Positions 1,675 through 9,360 of a stretch of DNA of 10,128 nucleotides are shown here, one piece after another (within the stretch, counting starts at the first letter, position 1; every line of letters begins with the position of its first letter). The position numbers were made by a program, and so were the translations under genes. The DNA is taken from contig JASHYU010000002.1 in NCBI GenBank assembly GCA_030042855.1, positions 1-10,128 on the forward strand, in the 5' to 3' direction. Below the pieces are notes generated by a model. It saw only the letters and a list, made by a program, of their open reading frames with translations, searched no databases and was not told the origin of the DNA. This DNA comes from Thermoplasmata archaeon (GTDB lineage Archaea; Thermoplasmatota; Thermoplasmata; UBA184).

Positions 1675-2349
1675 CTAGGATCCCAGGAGCGCGTCGAGCA
1701 GACGCTTCTCGGCCTTCCGGATATGCTCGACGACGGTCCCCGCCTCCACGCCCAATGCCTGGCCGAGTCGGCGGGAGGAGGTCCGGCGCGGAACGGCGTA
1801 GTATCCCAGCCGGTAGGCCGTCGTGAGCACCGAGCGCTGGGCATCCGTCAATCGGTCGAGCGGCGAGCTCCCAAATTCGGCCTCGGTCAACGAGACGATC
1901 CGATACTTGATGCGCCGGGCATCGGCGCGTCCGAGGATCTCTCGGAGCTGCCGTTGGTCGCCCACAAAGGTGTAGCGTAGTCGCCCGTCCCGGAAGCCGA
2001 GCGGTCCGAGCAGGTAACCCGAGCCCGGACGCGTGACCTCCGCCCCGAATACGGCGGGCCCGGACGGGCCGGGCCGGTGGGCGAGGGAGCGGCGTTTCAC
2101 GAAGGCGATCGACGAGCGAGGCCCCCGTTCCAGTACCTGGAGCTCGGAGGTCGCGGGATCGTCGCGGAAGATCTCCTCCACCCGGACCCGCGGGTCCCGC
2201 GGCGTGATGCGGCAGATTGCGGCGAACCCATTCCGGTCGTACCGGAGGATCTGGAGCACTTCGAACGCCTTCAGCCGGCGCATGGAGGCGCTCCTTCCGA
2301 CCGCCTCACGAAGGCCGCGGCCGTAGAGCTCGACCACGAGCTTACGCAT
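1675..2349 (-). CDS. HTH_10 (bacterio-opsin activator type) transcriptional regulator
   Basis: This 224-residue protein ends in the HTH domain typical of archaeal bacterio-opsin-activator-like regulators (about residues 162-224). The key string is SPLDRLTDAQ, then LTTAYRLGYYAVPRR, LGQALGV and EHIRKAEKRLLDALL. The N-terminal part (1-160) begins MRKLVVELYG and resembles the sensor-like region that precedes this HTH in many archaeal proteins. No metal-binding or PAS/GAF signature is obvious, so the ligand cannot be named. I chose ATG 2349. The frame continues upstream, but that extension is low-complexity, Arg-rich and antisense to the exporter. The gene is transcribed divergently from the MFS exporter with 99 bp between starts, a layout that suggests it controls the exporter and perhaps itself. 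That regulatory link is inference. pyrK lies 99 bp downstream on the same strand and has its own TATA element. Confidence 0.9.
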   Translation of the reverse strand: MRKLVVELYGRGLREAVGRSASMRRLKAFEVLQILRYDRNGFAAICRITPRDPRVRVEEIFRDDPATSELQVLERGPRSSIAFVKRRSLAHRPGPSGPAVFGAEVTRPGSGYLLGPLGFRDGRLRYTFVGDQRQLREILGRADARRIKYRIVSLTEAEFGSSPLDRLTDAQRSVLTTAYRLGYYAVPRRTSSRRLGQALGVEAGTVVEHIRKAEKRLLDALLGS

Positions 2350-2448
2350 CGCACCGACCCCCCGGCGGACGGCGGGGAAGGGGAAAAAGCCTAGCCGGTG
2401 AGGTAGCAGGCGGATTCCACGCTCGGCCGTACACTTCTCCGAGGACCG
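2350..2448. promoter_or_regulatory. Divergent intergenic region between HTH regulator and MFS exporter
   Basis: This 99-bp gap must hold the promoters of both divergent genes. The only AT-rich patch is an A/T run at about 2383-2389 (GCTTTTTCC on the minus strand). It lies 35-40 nt upstream of the regulator ATG and about 60 nt upstream of the exporter ATG, and could serve as box A in either direction. GAGG at 2441-2444 sits four bases before the exporter ATG and may act as a weak Shine-Dalgarno sequence. I found no convincing inverted repeat for an operator. Confidence 0.4.
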
Positions 2449-3948
2449 ATGGCCGGGAATCCGGGTGCCGAACCATCGACCGCCGATCGGCCGGTCCCCG
2501 CGTTCGACCGTTCGTACGCGAACCGAGCGCTCGTGCTGCTCTCGGCGCTGTCCGCGCTCATCGTGTACATCGACGTGATGCTCGTCCCCTCGCTCCCGAC
2601 CATCGCCGGCGTGTACCACGTGAGCATCGCCGAGACGAGTCTCCTGATCTCGCTCTACACGGTGTTCGGCGTGGCGATGATGCCCATCGTGGGGAAGCTG
2701 GGCGACATCTACGGCAAGCGGCGCGTCCTGCTGGCGACGCTCGTCGCGTACCTCGCGGTAGCGACGACGACCTCCTTCGCCCCGACGTTCGGCCTCGTCC
2801 TCGCTTCGCGCTTCTTCCAGGGCGTGGGCCTCGGGGTGTTCCCGCTGGCGTTCAGCCTGGCCCGCGAGGAGTTCCCGCGCGCCCTAGTGCCCCGGGCCCA
2901 GGGACTGATCAGCGCGGTCCAGGTCGCCGGCGGCGCCTTGGGGATCTTGGCCGGTGCGTTCGTTACGGAGGAGTTCGGCTGGCAGGCGAACTACCACCTC
3001 GCGATCCCGTGCATCGCGGCCCTCTCGGGGCTCGTCTACGTGTGGATCCGGGAGTCGCCGAACCTGAAGCCCGGCGTTCGACTCGACCTCGTCGGGGCGT
3101 TGTCCCTCGGGGGCGCGCTCACCGCGATCGTCCTCGGCCTCTCCGAGGGGGCAACCTGGGGGTGGACGTCCCTGCCGGTCCTCGGACTCATCGTCGGCGG
3201 CCTGCTCGCCCTGATCCCGCTCGCGCTGTTCGAGCGACGACGACCGGAGCCCGTCTTCGACCTCCGCCTTCTGCGAAAGCGAAACGTGCTCGTCGCGAAC
3301 CTGGTCGTCCTGATCTTCGGGATCTCGGGCTACGTAGCCTTCCAGGCGATCACGTACTACCTGCAGCTTCCCTCGCCGGCCGGTTTCGGTCTGGGCATCG
3401 TCGCGGCCGGTGTCGCGCTCATGCCTCTCGTGGTCGTCCTCTTGCCCGTGGCGTACGCGGCCGGGACGGTCATCCCGCGCTATGGGGTGCGACCTTTCCT
3501 TTTCCTCGGCGCGGTCTTCGGGATGGCGGGCTACTTGCTCCTCGGCTCGGCCTCGAGTGCCCTCGAGGTCTCGTTGTTCCTGTGCGCATACGCCGTCGGC
3601 GGCGGATTGCTGAGCGTCTCGGTCCAGAACCTTCTCGTTCTCTCCCTCGAGAAGGGCGAGATGGGCCTCGGCACTTCGCTGAACACGTCGTTCCGGTACA
3701 TCGGCCAGAGCATCGGCGCCCCCCTCGCCGGAGGGATCCTCTCGACGTTCGTCACCGTCCGGCTGACGCCCGGCGGGTTGGTCACTCTCCCGCAACACAT
3801 CGCGTTCCAGTACTGCTTCGTGGTTGCCGGCGCCCTCTTCATCGTCCTTGGCGCGATCGCGCTCTTCGCCACGGAGGTCATCGGACGCCGGGCACCCGCC
3901 GCCCGGGCCCCGGCACCGGGATCGACCGACGCTCGGCCTGCCTCGTGA
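2449..3948 (+). CDS. MFS multidrug-type exporter, 14-helix DHA2 family
   Basis: This 499-residue integral membrane transporter has about 14 hydrophobic segments, from ALVLLSALSALIVYIDVM (about 27-44) to the segment near the end (about 455-480). Fourteen helices mark the DHA2 (EmrB/QacA-like) drug:H+ antiporters. It carries IDVMLVPSLPTIA at the end of helix 1, the loop 2-3 motif A as GKLGDIYGKRR (82-92), RFFQGVGLG in helix 4 and a glycine-rich antiporter-like segment QVAGGALGILAGA in helix 5. The family exports small toxic or signalling compounds using the proton gradient; the substrate here cannot be told. The first 25 residues and the Ala/Pro-rich tail are probably cytosolic. No other Met in this frame lies before helix 1, which supports ATG 2449. 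It is divergent from an HTH_10 regulator, and the convergent pyrD stop lies 24 bp downstream. Confidence 0.92.
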   Translation: MAGNPGAEPSTADRPVPAFDRSYANRALVLLSALSALIVYIDVMLVPSLPTIAGVYHVSIAETSLLISLYTVFGVAMMPIVGKLGDIYGKRRVLLATLVAYLAVATTTSFAPTFGLVLASRFFQGVGLGVFPLAFSLAREEFPRALVPRAQGLISAVQVAGGALGILAGAFVTEEFGWQANYHLAIPCIAALSGLVYVWIRESPNLKPGVRLDLVGALSLGGALTAIVLGLSEGATWGWTSLPVLGLIVGGLLALIPLALFERRRPEPVFDLRLLRKRNVLVANLVVLIFGISGYVAFQAITYYLQLPSPAGFGLGIVAAGVALMPLVVVLLPVAYAAGTVIPRYGVRPFLFLGAVFGMAGYLLLGSASSALEVSLFLCAYAVGGGLLSVSVQNLLVLSLEKGEMGLGTSLNTSFRYIGQSIGAPLAGGILSTFVTVRLTPGGLVTLPQHIAFQYCFVVAGALFIVLGAIALFATEVIGRRAPAARAPAPGSTDARPAS

Positions 3949-3972: not shown

Positions 3973-4893
3973 TCAACCCTGGGCCGAGTGGGCGACTCCG
4001 ACCGCCTCTTCGAGACGAGCGTACCCCAGCGCGTCGAGCAGGGCCGAGAGGTCGCGGTCGAGCGAGGTAAACACGCCGACTCCCTGGAACGCGATTGCCG
4101 TGCCGACCTCGAGCGCCCGAGCCCCCGCCATCACGTACTCGAGGGCGTCCTGGGCCGTCATGATGCCCCCGACGCCGATGACGGGGATGCGCACGCGTTC
4201 GTAGATCTGCCAGACGCAGGCGAGCCCGACGGGCTTGATCGCCGGACCGCTCAATCCGCCGAGGCCGTGCGACAGCACCGGTCGCCGCAGCCGCACGTCG
4301 ATCGCGAGCCCTCGGAGGGTGTTGATGGCGCTGATCGCCGACGCACCGGCTCGCTCGGCCGCGGCCGCGAGCGCGGCGGGGTCCGCTGAGTTCGGGGTGA
4401 TCTTGGCGATCACCGGTATTCGTACGCGGCGGACGACCGCGCGAACGATCGCCTCGACGTCCGCGGGATCGCTCCCGACCTCGGTACCGAATCCCTCCGC
4501 GTGCGGACAGCTGAGATTGAGCTCGAGGGCGGCGACCCCCGTCGCGGCCATGCGCTCGGAGAGCTCCCCGAACTCCTCGGCGTCGCCCGCGAAGATCGAC
4601 CCGATGATCGTCGCCCCGGCCCGTCGCGCGGTCTCGATCTCGCGCGGATACTCGTCGATGCCGGGATTCGGGAGGCCCATCGCGTTGAGGAGACCCCAGC
4701 GCTCGTAGGTCTCGATCGTGGGGTTGGGATAGCCCGGGCGAGGGGTCGAACCGATCGACTTGGTGATCACGCCGCCCGCGCCGGCCGCCCAGGCCCCAGC
4801 GAGCGAGTCCCCGCTTTCGCCCCAGATCCCGGAGGCGAGGAGGAACGGGTTCCGCAGCGGGATCCCCGCGCAGCGGATTGAGAGGTCGGCCAC
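3973..4893 (-). CDS. pyrD: Dihydroorotate dehydrogenase catalytic subunit, class 1B
   Basis: PyrD oxidises dihydroorotate to orotate on FMN in the fourth step of UMP synthesis. At 306 residues it has the normal length. The TIM-barrel signatures are all present: [11 protein letters not shown] near the start, [11 protein letters not shown] (68-78), NLSCPH with the catalytic Cys at 129, AKITPN with Lys164, NTLRG (191-195) and the FMN-phosphate site [19 protein letters not shown] (about 240-258). A catalytic Cys rather than Ser marks class 1, and the presence of PyrK in the window points to subclass 1B, which uses NAD+. The start is GTG 4893, giving [16 protein letters not shown]; it lies about 27 nt below a TTTAAG element, so the message is probably leaderless. 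It is divergent from clpB, with 57 bp between starts, and convergent with the MFS gene. Confidence 0.97.
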
Positions 4894-4916
4894 GGTCCCG
4901 CGTCACAGGGGCTCCG

Positions 4917-4924
4917 CTTAAATC
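4917..4924. promoter_or_regulatory. Shared, near-symmetric TATA element between pyrD and clpB
   Basis: The plus strand reads GCTTAAATC and the minus strand GATTTAAGC, so one AT-rich element resembles box A in both directions. It is the main AT-rich patch between the two starts. The pyrD GTG at 4893 lies about 27 nt away on one side and the clpB ATG at 4951 about 30 nt away on the other. One element could therefore drive both genes, with no leader for pyrD and a leader of a few bases for clpB. I did not see an HSP-regulator-type operator flanking it. Confidence 0.5.
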
Positions 4925-4950
4925 GGCTTGGCCAAATGTGCGACCTCCGC

Positions 4951-7556
<2,606 letters not shown>

Positions 7557-7560
<4 letters not shown>

Positions 7561-8495
7561 CGCGGGGCGTCACGGTCGCCGTGGTCGGGGCGCCGGACAT
7601 CGCGAAGGAGCTGGGCAAGAAGGGGACCACCTCCGACCTCACCCTGTTCAACACCGTCCACGACGACGCCGCCATCACGGTCGTCGAGCCAACGCAGTTC
7701 CCGGAGAAGTTCCCGCCGCTGCTCACGGCCCTCGCGATGGCGGACCACGCGCTGCTCGTCATCGCCGAGCTCTCGCGGCCGGTCGCGGAGACGATCGCGA
7801 CCGTCGAACTCTCGAGCGTCCCGACGACCGTCGTGATCGGACCTTCGGTCGGAGCGGAGGAGGTCGCCCGCGTGCTGAAGGGGGGCCGGCTCGCCGCCGC
7901 CCCGCAGGTCCCGCTCGATCCGCCGAAGCTCCGCGAGCTCGTGGACGGCCTCACGGCACCGCCGTCCGAAGGTCCGGTGCGCGTGCCGATCGACCACGCG
8001 TTCCCCGTGAAGGGCGTCGGCGCGGTCGCCCTCGGGGTCGTGCGGCGCGGCGTGTTACGCGCGCACGAGCGGCTTCGGCTCTATCCCACGCCGAAGTCGG
8101 TCGAGATCCGATCGATCCAGGTGCACGACGTGGATCGGAAGGACGCCGCGGCGGGCGAGCGGGTCGGGGTGGCGCTCAAGGGCGTGGAGGCGGACGAGCT
8201 GTCCCGGGGGCAGACGCTGGCCCCGGAGGGTTCGCTCTCCGACAGCTCGACCGTGGCGCTCGAGCGCTTCGAGAAGTGCCGGTACTACCGCGGGGACGCC
8301 GGCCCGGGCGCGCAGCTGCATCTCGCTCTCGGCCTCCAGTCGGTCCCGGCGGTCCTCGACGAGCTCGCGGGGGGCAGCGCCCGGCTCACCGCGGACCGAC
8401 CGGTCGCCTTTGCCGGGGGTGACGTGGCGTACCTCGTGGACCTCTCGGTGCCCACCGGTCCCCGCATCTTCGCGCGGGGCGACGCGCGGGCGTGA
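7557..8495 (+). CDS. EF-1A/SelB-like translation factor paralogue with degenerate GTPase domain
   Basis: This 312-residue protein has the EF-Tu/EF-1A/SelB layout, but its G domain (1-135) lacks normal GTPase motifs. The P-loop region reads GAPDIAKELGKKGTTSD (11-27), with no clean GxxxxGK[ST]. The switch 2 DxxG position reads VEPTQFPEKFPPLL, and no NKxD is visible near VVIGPSVGA. Domain II (about 141-225) is well preserved: DHAFPVKGVGAVALG, SVEIRSIQVHD and VGVALKGVEADELSRG closely resemble the same region of EF-1A and SelB. A short third domain (about 235-312) follows. I recall similar G-less paralogues in methanogens and relatives, without an established function. It is probably cytosolic and may bind tRNA, ribosomes or a translation factor; that is inference. 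The start overlaps the clpB stop (ATGA), so translation is likely coupled. The last 110 bp overlap the methyltransferase gene on the other strand. Confidence 0.82.
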
Positions 8496-9360
8496 GGACG
8501 GACCCGCGCGATCCGGCGGCGCTCGAGAGCGGGCGTCGGGCGACGAGCACGAGCCGACGAGTCGCCCGGGACCGTTGTCGGAGCGCGATGAGCTCGCCGT
8601 AGACCTCGGTCACTCGCCAGCCGGCATGCCGCAGCAGGTCCCGCGCAGTGCGCTCGGTGTACACCTGCACCCGGACCTCGACCTTTAGCAGGCGTCGACG
8701 GATCCGACCGACCCGGTAGAACGTCCAACGCGACCGGATCTCGGACCGCGCGCGATCGTACGTCCGGAGTTCGCGGTGTTCAAGGCCCGGGTCGAGCCGT
8801 AGCGTGGACTCGGGCTCGAAATGGCGCCGCACCCGATCGAGGTCGGCCGTCTCCCAGACGAGGAGCCCGCCCGGGCGCACCACGCGCCGGATTTCGCGCA
8901 GCACACGGGCGTCCGCCGCGCGCCCCCGGTAGCCGATCGAGGTGAACAGGCAGATCGCCGCGTCGAACGGCGCCTCCCCGGCCCGTCGGAGCGTTTCGGT
9001 CACGTGGGCATAGTCGGCCGGATAGAACCTCGCAGCCGACCGACCGAGGCCGGCGCGACGGGCGCTGCGACGCGCCTCGGCGAGGAAGGTGCGGGACAGG
9101 TCGGTCCCGACCACCCGAAAGCCGGCGCGGCCGAGGGGGATCACGTGCCGGCCGAGACCGCAGGCGATATCGAGCACTCGGGCGGGGGGCCGGATCCCGG
9201 CGCGTCGCAGGATCCGACCGACCCCCTGGGCCTCCCGTCGACCGAACGCCGCTCGGGCCCGGAGGTACGGAGCGTAGATTCCGGCGTGGCGGACGAACAG
9301 CGTGCGGGGCCAAGGCTCCGGGCGCCGCCCGGGCCGAGACCGCGAACGGGCACGTCCCAT
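8386..9360 (-). CDS. Class I SAM-dependent methyltransferase
   Basis: This 324-residue cytosolic protein has a Rossmann-fold methyltransferase core. SAM motif I is RVLDIACGLGRH (61-72), followed by an acidic loop GTDLS (85-89), FYPADYAHV (112-120), AICLFTSIGY (135-144) and VVRPGGLLVWE (160-170). It resembles a widespread group of small-molecule-type methyltransferases with an N-terminal helix YAPYLRARAAFGRREAQGV; the substrate cannot be named. The fold should end near LVLVARRP (270-277). The remaining residues (278-324) are an Arg/Pro-rich tail without family likeness, and residues 289-324 are encoded antisense to the end of the EF-1A-like gene. The tail may be real, or a base error may have hidden an earlier stop. 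ATG 9360 lies 24 bp after the pan stop on the same strand with no clear Shine-Dalgarno sequence, so the two genes are probably co-transcribed. The first 20 residues are Arg/Pro-rich, and the true start could be further in. Confidence 0.85.
   Translation of the reverse strand: MGRARSRSRPGRRPEPWPRTLFVRHAGIYAPYLRARAAFGRREAQGVGRILRRAGIRPPARVLDIACGLGRHVIPLGRAGFRVVGTDLSRTFLAEARRSARRAGLGRSAARFYPADYAHVTETLRRAGEAPFDAAICLFTSIGYRGRAADARVLREIRRVVRPGGLLVWETADLDRVRRHFEPESTLRLDPGLEHRELRTYDRARSEIRSRWTFYRVGRIRRRLLKVEVRVQVYTERTARDLLRHAGWRVTEVYGELIALRQRSRATRRLVLVARRPLSSAAGSRGSVLTPARRPARRCGDRWAPRGPRGTPRHPRQRRPVGPR

Follow-up and report, generated by a model that had tools for sequence, protein, structure and literature searches.

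The 10,128-nt stretch analysed here (the window; positions 1 to 10,128 of contig JASHYU010000002.1, assembly GCA_030042855.1, from a Thermoplasmata archaeon) carries on its forward strand a gene for a divergent SelB-like pseudo-GTPase of 312 amino acids, aSelBL (7557..8495), assigned from its open reading frame (ORF), a PF03144 match, the best PDB sequence match (3wnb), the predicted fold and a tree. The ORF runs from an ATG at 7557 to a stop codon at 8493-8495, which agrees with the coordinates and frame given in an earlier note made from the sequence alone. Directly upstream on the same strand lies clpB (4951..7560; TIGR03346, 1266.8 bits against a cut-off of 1232.1), whose ORF opens at 4936 with Met6, at 4951, as the likelier start. 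From the ORF coordinates the two genes share the tetranucleotide ATGA (7557..7560, +), the clpB stop codon overlapping the aSelBL start codon as the note had described.

The sole Pfam match to the aSelBL protein at E 0.001 was domain II (PF03144, residues 155-222, 8019..8222, +), at 48 bits against a cut-off of 30.3, consistent with the earlier claim that this domain is well preserved; none of the G-domain Pfam models matched at the same threshold. The SelB, EF-1A and EF-Tu models align around domain II (residues 123-234), and none comes near its cut-off, with 73.1 bits against 242.25 for SelB and 72.2 bits against 502 for EF-1A (PRK12317). The best PDB sequence match was 3wnb (E 2.6e-31), a structure of MM1309 from Methanosarcina mazei. 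A first structure model, based on 26 close sequences, had a pLDDT of 64 at residues 21-30, and a second, based on 76 sequences, was used. It shows a three-domain EF1-type fold closest to MM1309, with translation factors as the best fits, and its residues 1-311 align to 3wnb through residue 350 of the latter with no C-terminal extension past domain III. In a tree, rooted at the midpoint only and with several weak deep forks, the window protein falls in a 31-row clade (100/100) among the divergent aSelBL, and four aSelB-type rows are separate (100/100). One of the sampled loci (L170, from the phylum of a Bathyarchaeota record) encodes an aSelB-type protein of 421 amino acids as called, with D-L-P-G-H at G3, that groups with three aSelB-type sequences (100/100). 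Three stretches of viral contigs that matched a search pattern encode no relative. The protein is a member of the divergent subgroup of aSelBL. The earlier note knew of no assigned function for the family; it is in print as aSelBL or aEF-X, with structures, GTP affinities and protection of Cys-tRNACys.

The loss of normal P-loop, DxxG and NKxD motifs was borne out across the clade. The patterns GxxxxGK[ST], D.[PA]GH and [NT]KxD were each found in 0 of 57 proteins (the window protein and 56 aligned clade relatives) in the expected regions, that is, no clade homologue with intact G motifs was seen. Alignment gaps define a P-loop remnant, VVGAPD (7581..7598, +), in which the first glycine (7587-7589) is kept and GK[ST] is deleted. 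MM1309 positions 11-14, 105 and 136 fall in gaps in all 78 divergent representatives and all 57 clade members, whereas the conservative aSelBL members keep Gly13, Thr15 and Asp103 (MM1309 numbering) in 11/11 cases. The position of the catalytic G3 histidine holds Tyr or Phe in 77 of the 78 divergent representatives and a gap in the other. Permutation tests found no excess conservation at the former P-loop positions (0.72 and 0.88 of draws were as high). Family, fold and nucleotide-motif loss are thus established by the analysis.

For the conservation analysis, sequences with a truncated or open end, or with a length beyond the range of 280-360 amino acids, were dropped, leaving 178 of 186, the window protein included. 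The string AKELGKKGTTSD (residues 16-27), whose GKKGTTSD part lies at 7614..7637 (+), had been thought to stand where the nucleotide site would be. This did not hold: by alignment it corresponds to LGKKGTSSD of MM1309, and the P-loop remnant is the preceding VVGAPD. In MM1309 this segment is switch I, Gly22-Ile30 form a β-strand lying apart from the nucleotide, and the aminoacyl pocket is lined by Gly25-Thr26-Ser27; Ser28 bonds to domain 2 through His179 and Arg249, the latter also contacting Asp29 (PMC4329189). The window counterparts of these contacts are G23-T24-T25, S26, D27 and R217. Among 85 representatives, residues 20-27 of this switch I/β-2 strand formed the most conserved 8-residue stretch of the G domain (mean 0.84 vs a G-domain mean of 0.51), with 44 of the 85 coming from loci that a motif-containing pattern could have found. 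The patterns that yielded the first loci (L001-L080; the scan kept 80 of 332 matches) included LGK[KR]GTxSD, and we therefore recounted on the loci found by profile (L081 and later), the profile having been built from the first locus set and close homologues. The strand remained outstanding in 40 divergent representatives from these later searches (mean 0.81 vs 0.56; 0.0008 of random draws as high), which answers in the affirmative the note's question whether GKKGT exceeds the remainder of the G domain in conservation. Among 47 profile-search representatives K21 was kept in 47, D27 in 46, G20 in 44, T24 in 43, G23 in 41 and S26 in 30, with Thr in 15 at the last position.

Domain II is the best conserved domain among the 85 representatives, and it contributes the remainder of the pocket. 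By alignment, the pocket core is Asp146-His147-Ala148-Phe149 (7992..8003, +), equivalent to Asp191/His192 of aSelB and Asp178/His179/Phe181 of MM1309; it is accompanied by Arg202 (8160..8162, +; aSelB Arg247, MM1309 Arg234) and Arg217 (8205..8207, +), the counterpart of the MM1309 Arg249 that bonds the switch I Ser and Asp. In the 47 profile-search representatives D146, F149 and R217 are kept in all 47, R202 in 44 and H147 in 40, and this conservation, established here, is common to relatives outside the clade. GTP-form EF-Tu (1exm) is the better fit to the model, with a TMq of 0.80 against 0.48 for GDP-form EF-Tu (1d8t). Since strand and pocket are conserved, the P-loop positions show no excess conservation and the model fits the GTP form, the G domain seems to persist as one structural half of the aminoacyl pocket, not as a switch. 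Two further residues are nearly fixed among the 47 representatives, Glu78 in the G domain (7788..7790, +; 47/47) and Arg303 in domain III (8463..8465, +; 46/47). These may match the EF-Tu salt bridge Glu117-Arg385 between domains 1 and 3, which would suit a locked closed form.

As to the cargo, MM1309 is reported to lengthen the half-life of Cys-tRNACys towards hydrolysis from 80 to 300 min (PMC4329189), a property that the 2011 definition of aSelBL does not include. We sampled 150 genomes of the class evenly and counted by hand or eye from listings, with genome completeness not given; aSelBL was present in 89 and ClpB in 19 (both E <= 1e-60). CysRS was over cut-off in 18 of the 19 ClpB-bearing genomes; in G131 full-length CysRS seems to be split over contigs. 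A selenocysteine role and tRNA-dependent cysteine synthesis both gained no support: SelD and SepRS were each over cut-off in 0/19 of these related genomes, with weaker matches to each in 19/19. By hand count all 19 ClpB-bearing genomes also have a CysRS-like match that is shorter (about 300-400 model positions) and stays below cut-off; it comes in addition to a CysRS over cut-off, or in G131 in its place. One such match that was checked (L226:213-1325) did not reach the cut-off of either cysS (247 bits) or MshC (207 bits).

Our preferred explanation, which we consider reasonably probable, is that divergent aSelBL is closed without nucleotide and acts as a nucleotide-independent aminoacyl-tRNA binder, not as a GTPase-cycling elongation factor, and that in this order it is co-transcribed behind clpB. 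With the former switch I strand (GKKGTxSD) now part of the interface between domains 1 and 2, the G domain would be held in a closed, GTP-like arrangement; the aminoacyl pocket is formed by this interface, and nucleotide-independent binding of aminoacyl-tRNA is therefore the most likely activity of the protein. The cargo would probably be Cys-tRNACys, which may then be shielded or handed on with no GTPase cycling. We infer both the nucleotide-free tRNA binding and the tRNA specificity. Several observations weigh against this explanation. His147 is replaced by Gln or Ser in 7/47 representatives. The lysine with which EF-Tu holds the tRNA 5′ phosphate is matched by Lys55 in MM1309, and at least 73 of the 78 divergent representatives differ there (A31 S16 P12 Q12 V2); in MM1309 crystals the 5′-end site is blocked by the same domain interface (PMC4329189). 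The window protein is only 30% identical to MM1309 in the structural alignment, Cys-tRNA binding has, among the publications seen, been measured for no protein but MM1309, and that one still binds GTP, and a protein that AlphaFold models as closed need not be locked. We take the sub-threshold SelD and SepRS matches in 19/19 genomes to be other families; the promoter-like and Shine-Dalgarno-like signals described below are sequence patterns, not transcript data; and stops occur within the aSelBL match in four genomes (G005, G006, G008 and G160).

These stops, together with the large G-domain deletions and a locus of G005 (L065) whose chosen reading ends after 14 amino acids, are what one would expect of a decaying paralogue heading for loss. 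This reading is already disfavoured and we hold it to be extremely improbable, as 178 of 186 sequences from several archaeal groups have closed, near full-length frames and a set of 76 sequences shares 13 strictly invariant residues. In L065 and L152 (G005, a Bathyarchaeota record) an in-frame stop lies near the start of the aSelBL match, reflecting either a broken copy or an assembly error.

The whole EF-Tu-like body, the best fits to translation factors and the highly conserved domain II would also suit a true GTP-independent elongation factor that supplies the ribosomal A site with one particular aminoacyl-tRNA, and the domain II patches that contact 16S are described as kept in aSelBL (Atkinson, Hauryliuk, Tenson 2011, PMC3037878). 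We regard this as unlikely. GTP-driven release is improbable in a protein with no nucleotide site and with Tyr or Phe in place of the catalytic G3 histidine. Furthermore aSelBL was not found at E 1e-60 in 61/150 class-sample genomes, and it therefore seems dispensable for normal decoding.

A role in tRNA biology outside decoding, for example as a tRNA-maturation carrier or an aminoacyl-tRNA store for a non-ribosomal reaction, was left open by Atkinson 2011 (PMC3037878) and agrees with neighbours outside the clade that are not consistently translational. However, no recurrent enzyme partner stood out among the matches listed for 50 upstream and 50 downstream neighbours, which covered the first 25 of 46 upstream and the first 25 of 44 downstream families, so that rarer repeats may be missed. 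The commonest families among these matches were ferrochelatase and MscL upstream (3 members each) and LemA downstream (4). The 50 loci include three clade members that lack clpB (L052, L054 and L055), and their gene models are simple longest-ORF picks. A link to a second CysRS-family gene was likewise rejected, two matches at E 1e-40 being present in 28/89 aSelBL genomes vs 19/61 others (p = 1, hand count). Hence we judge this role rather unlikely.

Returning to the preferred explanation, its second part concerns the gene order. Among the clade loci (L001-L056; loci rather than genomes, as L053 and L056 share one genome) clpB immediately precedes aSelBL, both on one strand, in 50/53 testable cases, down to 49% aSelBL identity; L001, L031 and L053 were left out as their upstream DNA was not covered, and the exceptions are L052, L054 and L055. 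The genes overlap by 4 nt in 22 of the 50 linked loci, and the spacing is up to 16 nt in 49/50. Of the neighbours that the earlier note had suggested surveying (clpB, dnaK, pan), clpB and PAN (convergent, 42/45) recur across the clade, and the clpB linkage, seen in many genomes, is not confined to this one. Literature searches, whose scope did not extend to supplementary files, found no publication on the clpB-aSelBL arrangement. TTA[AT]A begins 23-37 nt (mostly 29-33) before clpB in 39/40 loci examined and before aSelBL in 0/50; in the window the TATA-like TTAAA (4918..4922, +), a putative promoter element by its conservation, lies 33 nt 5′ of the likely clpB start. The intergenic region between the divergent pyrD and clpB (4893-4951) is short, with a conserved CTTAAATCGGCTCG-like element that fits a leaderless archaeal promoter. 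In the clade loci that lack clpB, TTA[AT]A stands before aSelBL in L054 and L055, which are identical there, and not in L052. Shine-Dalgarno-like 5-mers are enriched before aSelBL (16/52, these three loci included, vs a 7.5% background). The clade-wide gene order and the promoter-like pattern are established; promoter and spacing patterns support, although they do not prove, a single clpB-aSelBL transcript with possibly coupled translation. We infer co-transcription from one promoter in this Thermoplasmatota order, presumably Ca. Lutacidiplasmatales; a physiological tie to ClpB may go with it. An abstract describes aerobic and facultative anaerobic lifestyles (PMC9287336).

The gene pair with its one apparent promoter, and the finding that all 19 ClpB genomes of the class sample lie within the 89 with aSelBL (Fisher p 2e-5, with no kinship correction), speak for the note's reading in a mechanistic form, a quality-control factor by which nascent chains that are stalled or aggregated, or ribosomes, would be delivered to ClpB. 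As a role for the family this mechanism fared poorly, and we consider it very improbable. No ClpB at E 1e-60 was found in 70/89 aSelBL genomes, and of the 19 ClpB-bearing genomes 15 have the genes adjacent and 4 on different contigs. Outside the clade none of the available flanks contained ClpB: among 169 loci (L057-L225) E 1e-8 matches occurred only in L092 and L109, both clade members, most of L081-L185 having only about 1.5 kb of flank and some less upstream. Nor is the linkage special to clpB, since within the clade pyrD (divergent beside clpB, 37/37 testable loci) and PAN are as tightly linked, and the pocket is conserved outside the clade too. In samples from other phyla aSelBL was found in 36/100 (E <= 1e-60), 29/121 (E <= 1e-80) and 29/36 (E <= 2e-98) genomes. 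Methanosarcina acetivorans, Methanococcus maripaludis and Sulfolobus acidocaldarius are among the published carriers (PMC3037878). Given that aSelBL is widespread without ClpB, clpB is unlikely to be required for its basic function; the pairing may have a lineage-specific stress role. One speculative form, which we hold to be quite improbable, is an operon acting as a stress module in this aerobic acid-soil order, in which the nucleotide-free closed carrier would keep Cys-tRNACys intact during a stall while ClpB clears aggregates, so that synthesis could restart. Such a carrier would be a member of the EF-Tu family that deals with aminoacyl-tRNA without any nucleotide switch.

Some variation around the gene was also seen. 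Genome G046 (L092, contig C41) has two aSelBL matches, one beside a clpB fragment and one not, from a duplication or a mixed bin. In L057 (3423-6149) and L058 (3235-5970) a same-strand gene closely preceding aSelBL encodes a protein of about 910 amino acids; that of L057 has Lamin Tail and PLD-like domains and a 4-nt overlap with the longest aSelBL reading, making another lineage-specific tandem. In the window an HTH_10 regulator (-) and a major facilitator superfamily transporter (+) lie between pyrK and pyrD (1675-3948), whereas most relatives that have the two genes carry them near each other. Between aSelBL and PAN lies a methyltransferase ORF (8386-9360, -) that as called overlaps the aSelBL 3′ end on the opposite strand; of the 56 clade loci, L001 and L007 alone gave a match to it at E 1e-8.

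The family is present in several archaeal phyla, and divergent aSelBL constitutes a natural experiment in which the nucleotide site of an EF-Tu-type factor has been removed and the aminoacyl pocket left almost unchanged. It so bears on whether the EF-Tu body can carry aminoacyl-tRNA with no switch. A concrete, lineage-limited hint toward stress conditions comes from the conserved linkage to clpB.

The window protein belongs to a known family, and its lineage and gene arrangement are absent from the publications searched. With the divergent aSelBL, as characterised in PMC3037878, it shares the P-loop deletion, a second G-domain deletion, K-G-T at G2, E/D-P at G3, the Asp-His...Arg pocket (D146, H147, R202) and the lack of a C-terminal SECIS domain; in the 19 related genomes SelD gave only matches below its cut-off. 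It differs in lying behind clpB, the neighbours named in the context section of that paper being hemH, metRS, alaRS, DNA ligase, ribonucleases and S10/EF1A, and not clpB. In aSelB (4AC9/4ACB) the GTPase motifs are intact and the C-terminus is extended (PMC3037878), in contrast to the window protein with no intact motifs. aEF1A and EF-Tu share its domain order and domain II and differ in possessing the nucleotide motifs. MM1309 (EF-Pyl, aEF-X; 3WNB, 3WNC, 3WND) shares the three domains, the LGKKGTxSD switch I strand and the pocket residues and is the best fold match. According to PMC4329189, it keeps a partial P-loop (Arg14 for Lys) and guanine recognition, segments that the window protein lacks, binds GTP at 0.43 μM and showed no GTPase activity without ribosomes (data not shown by its authors).
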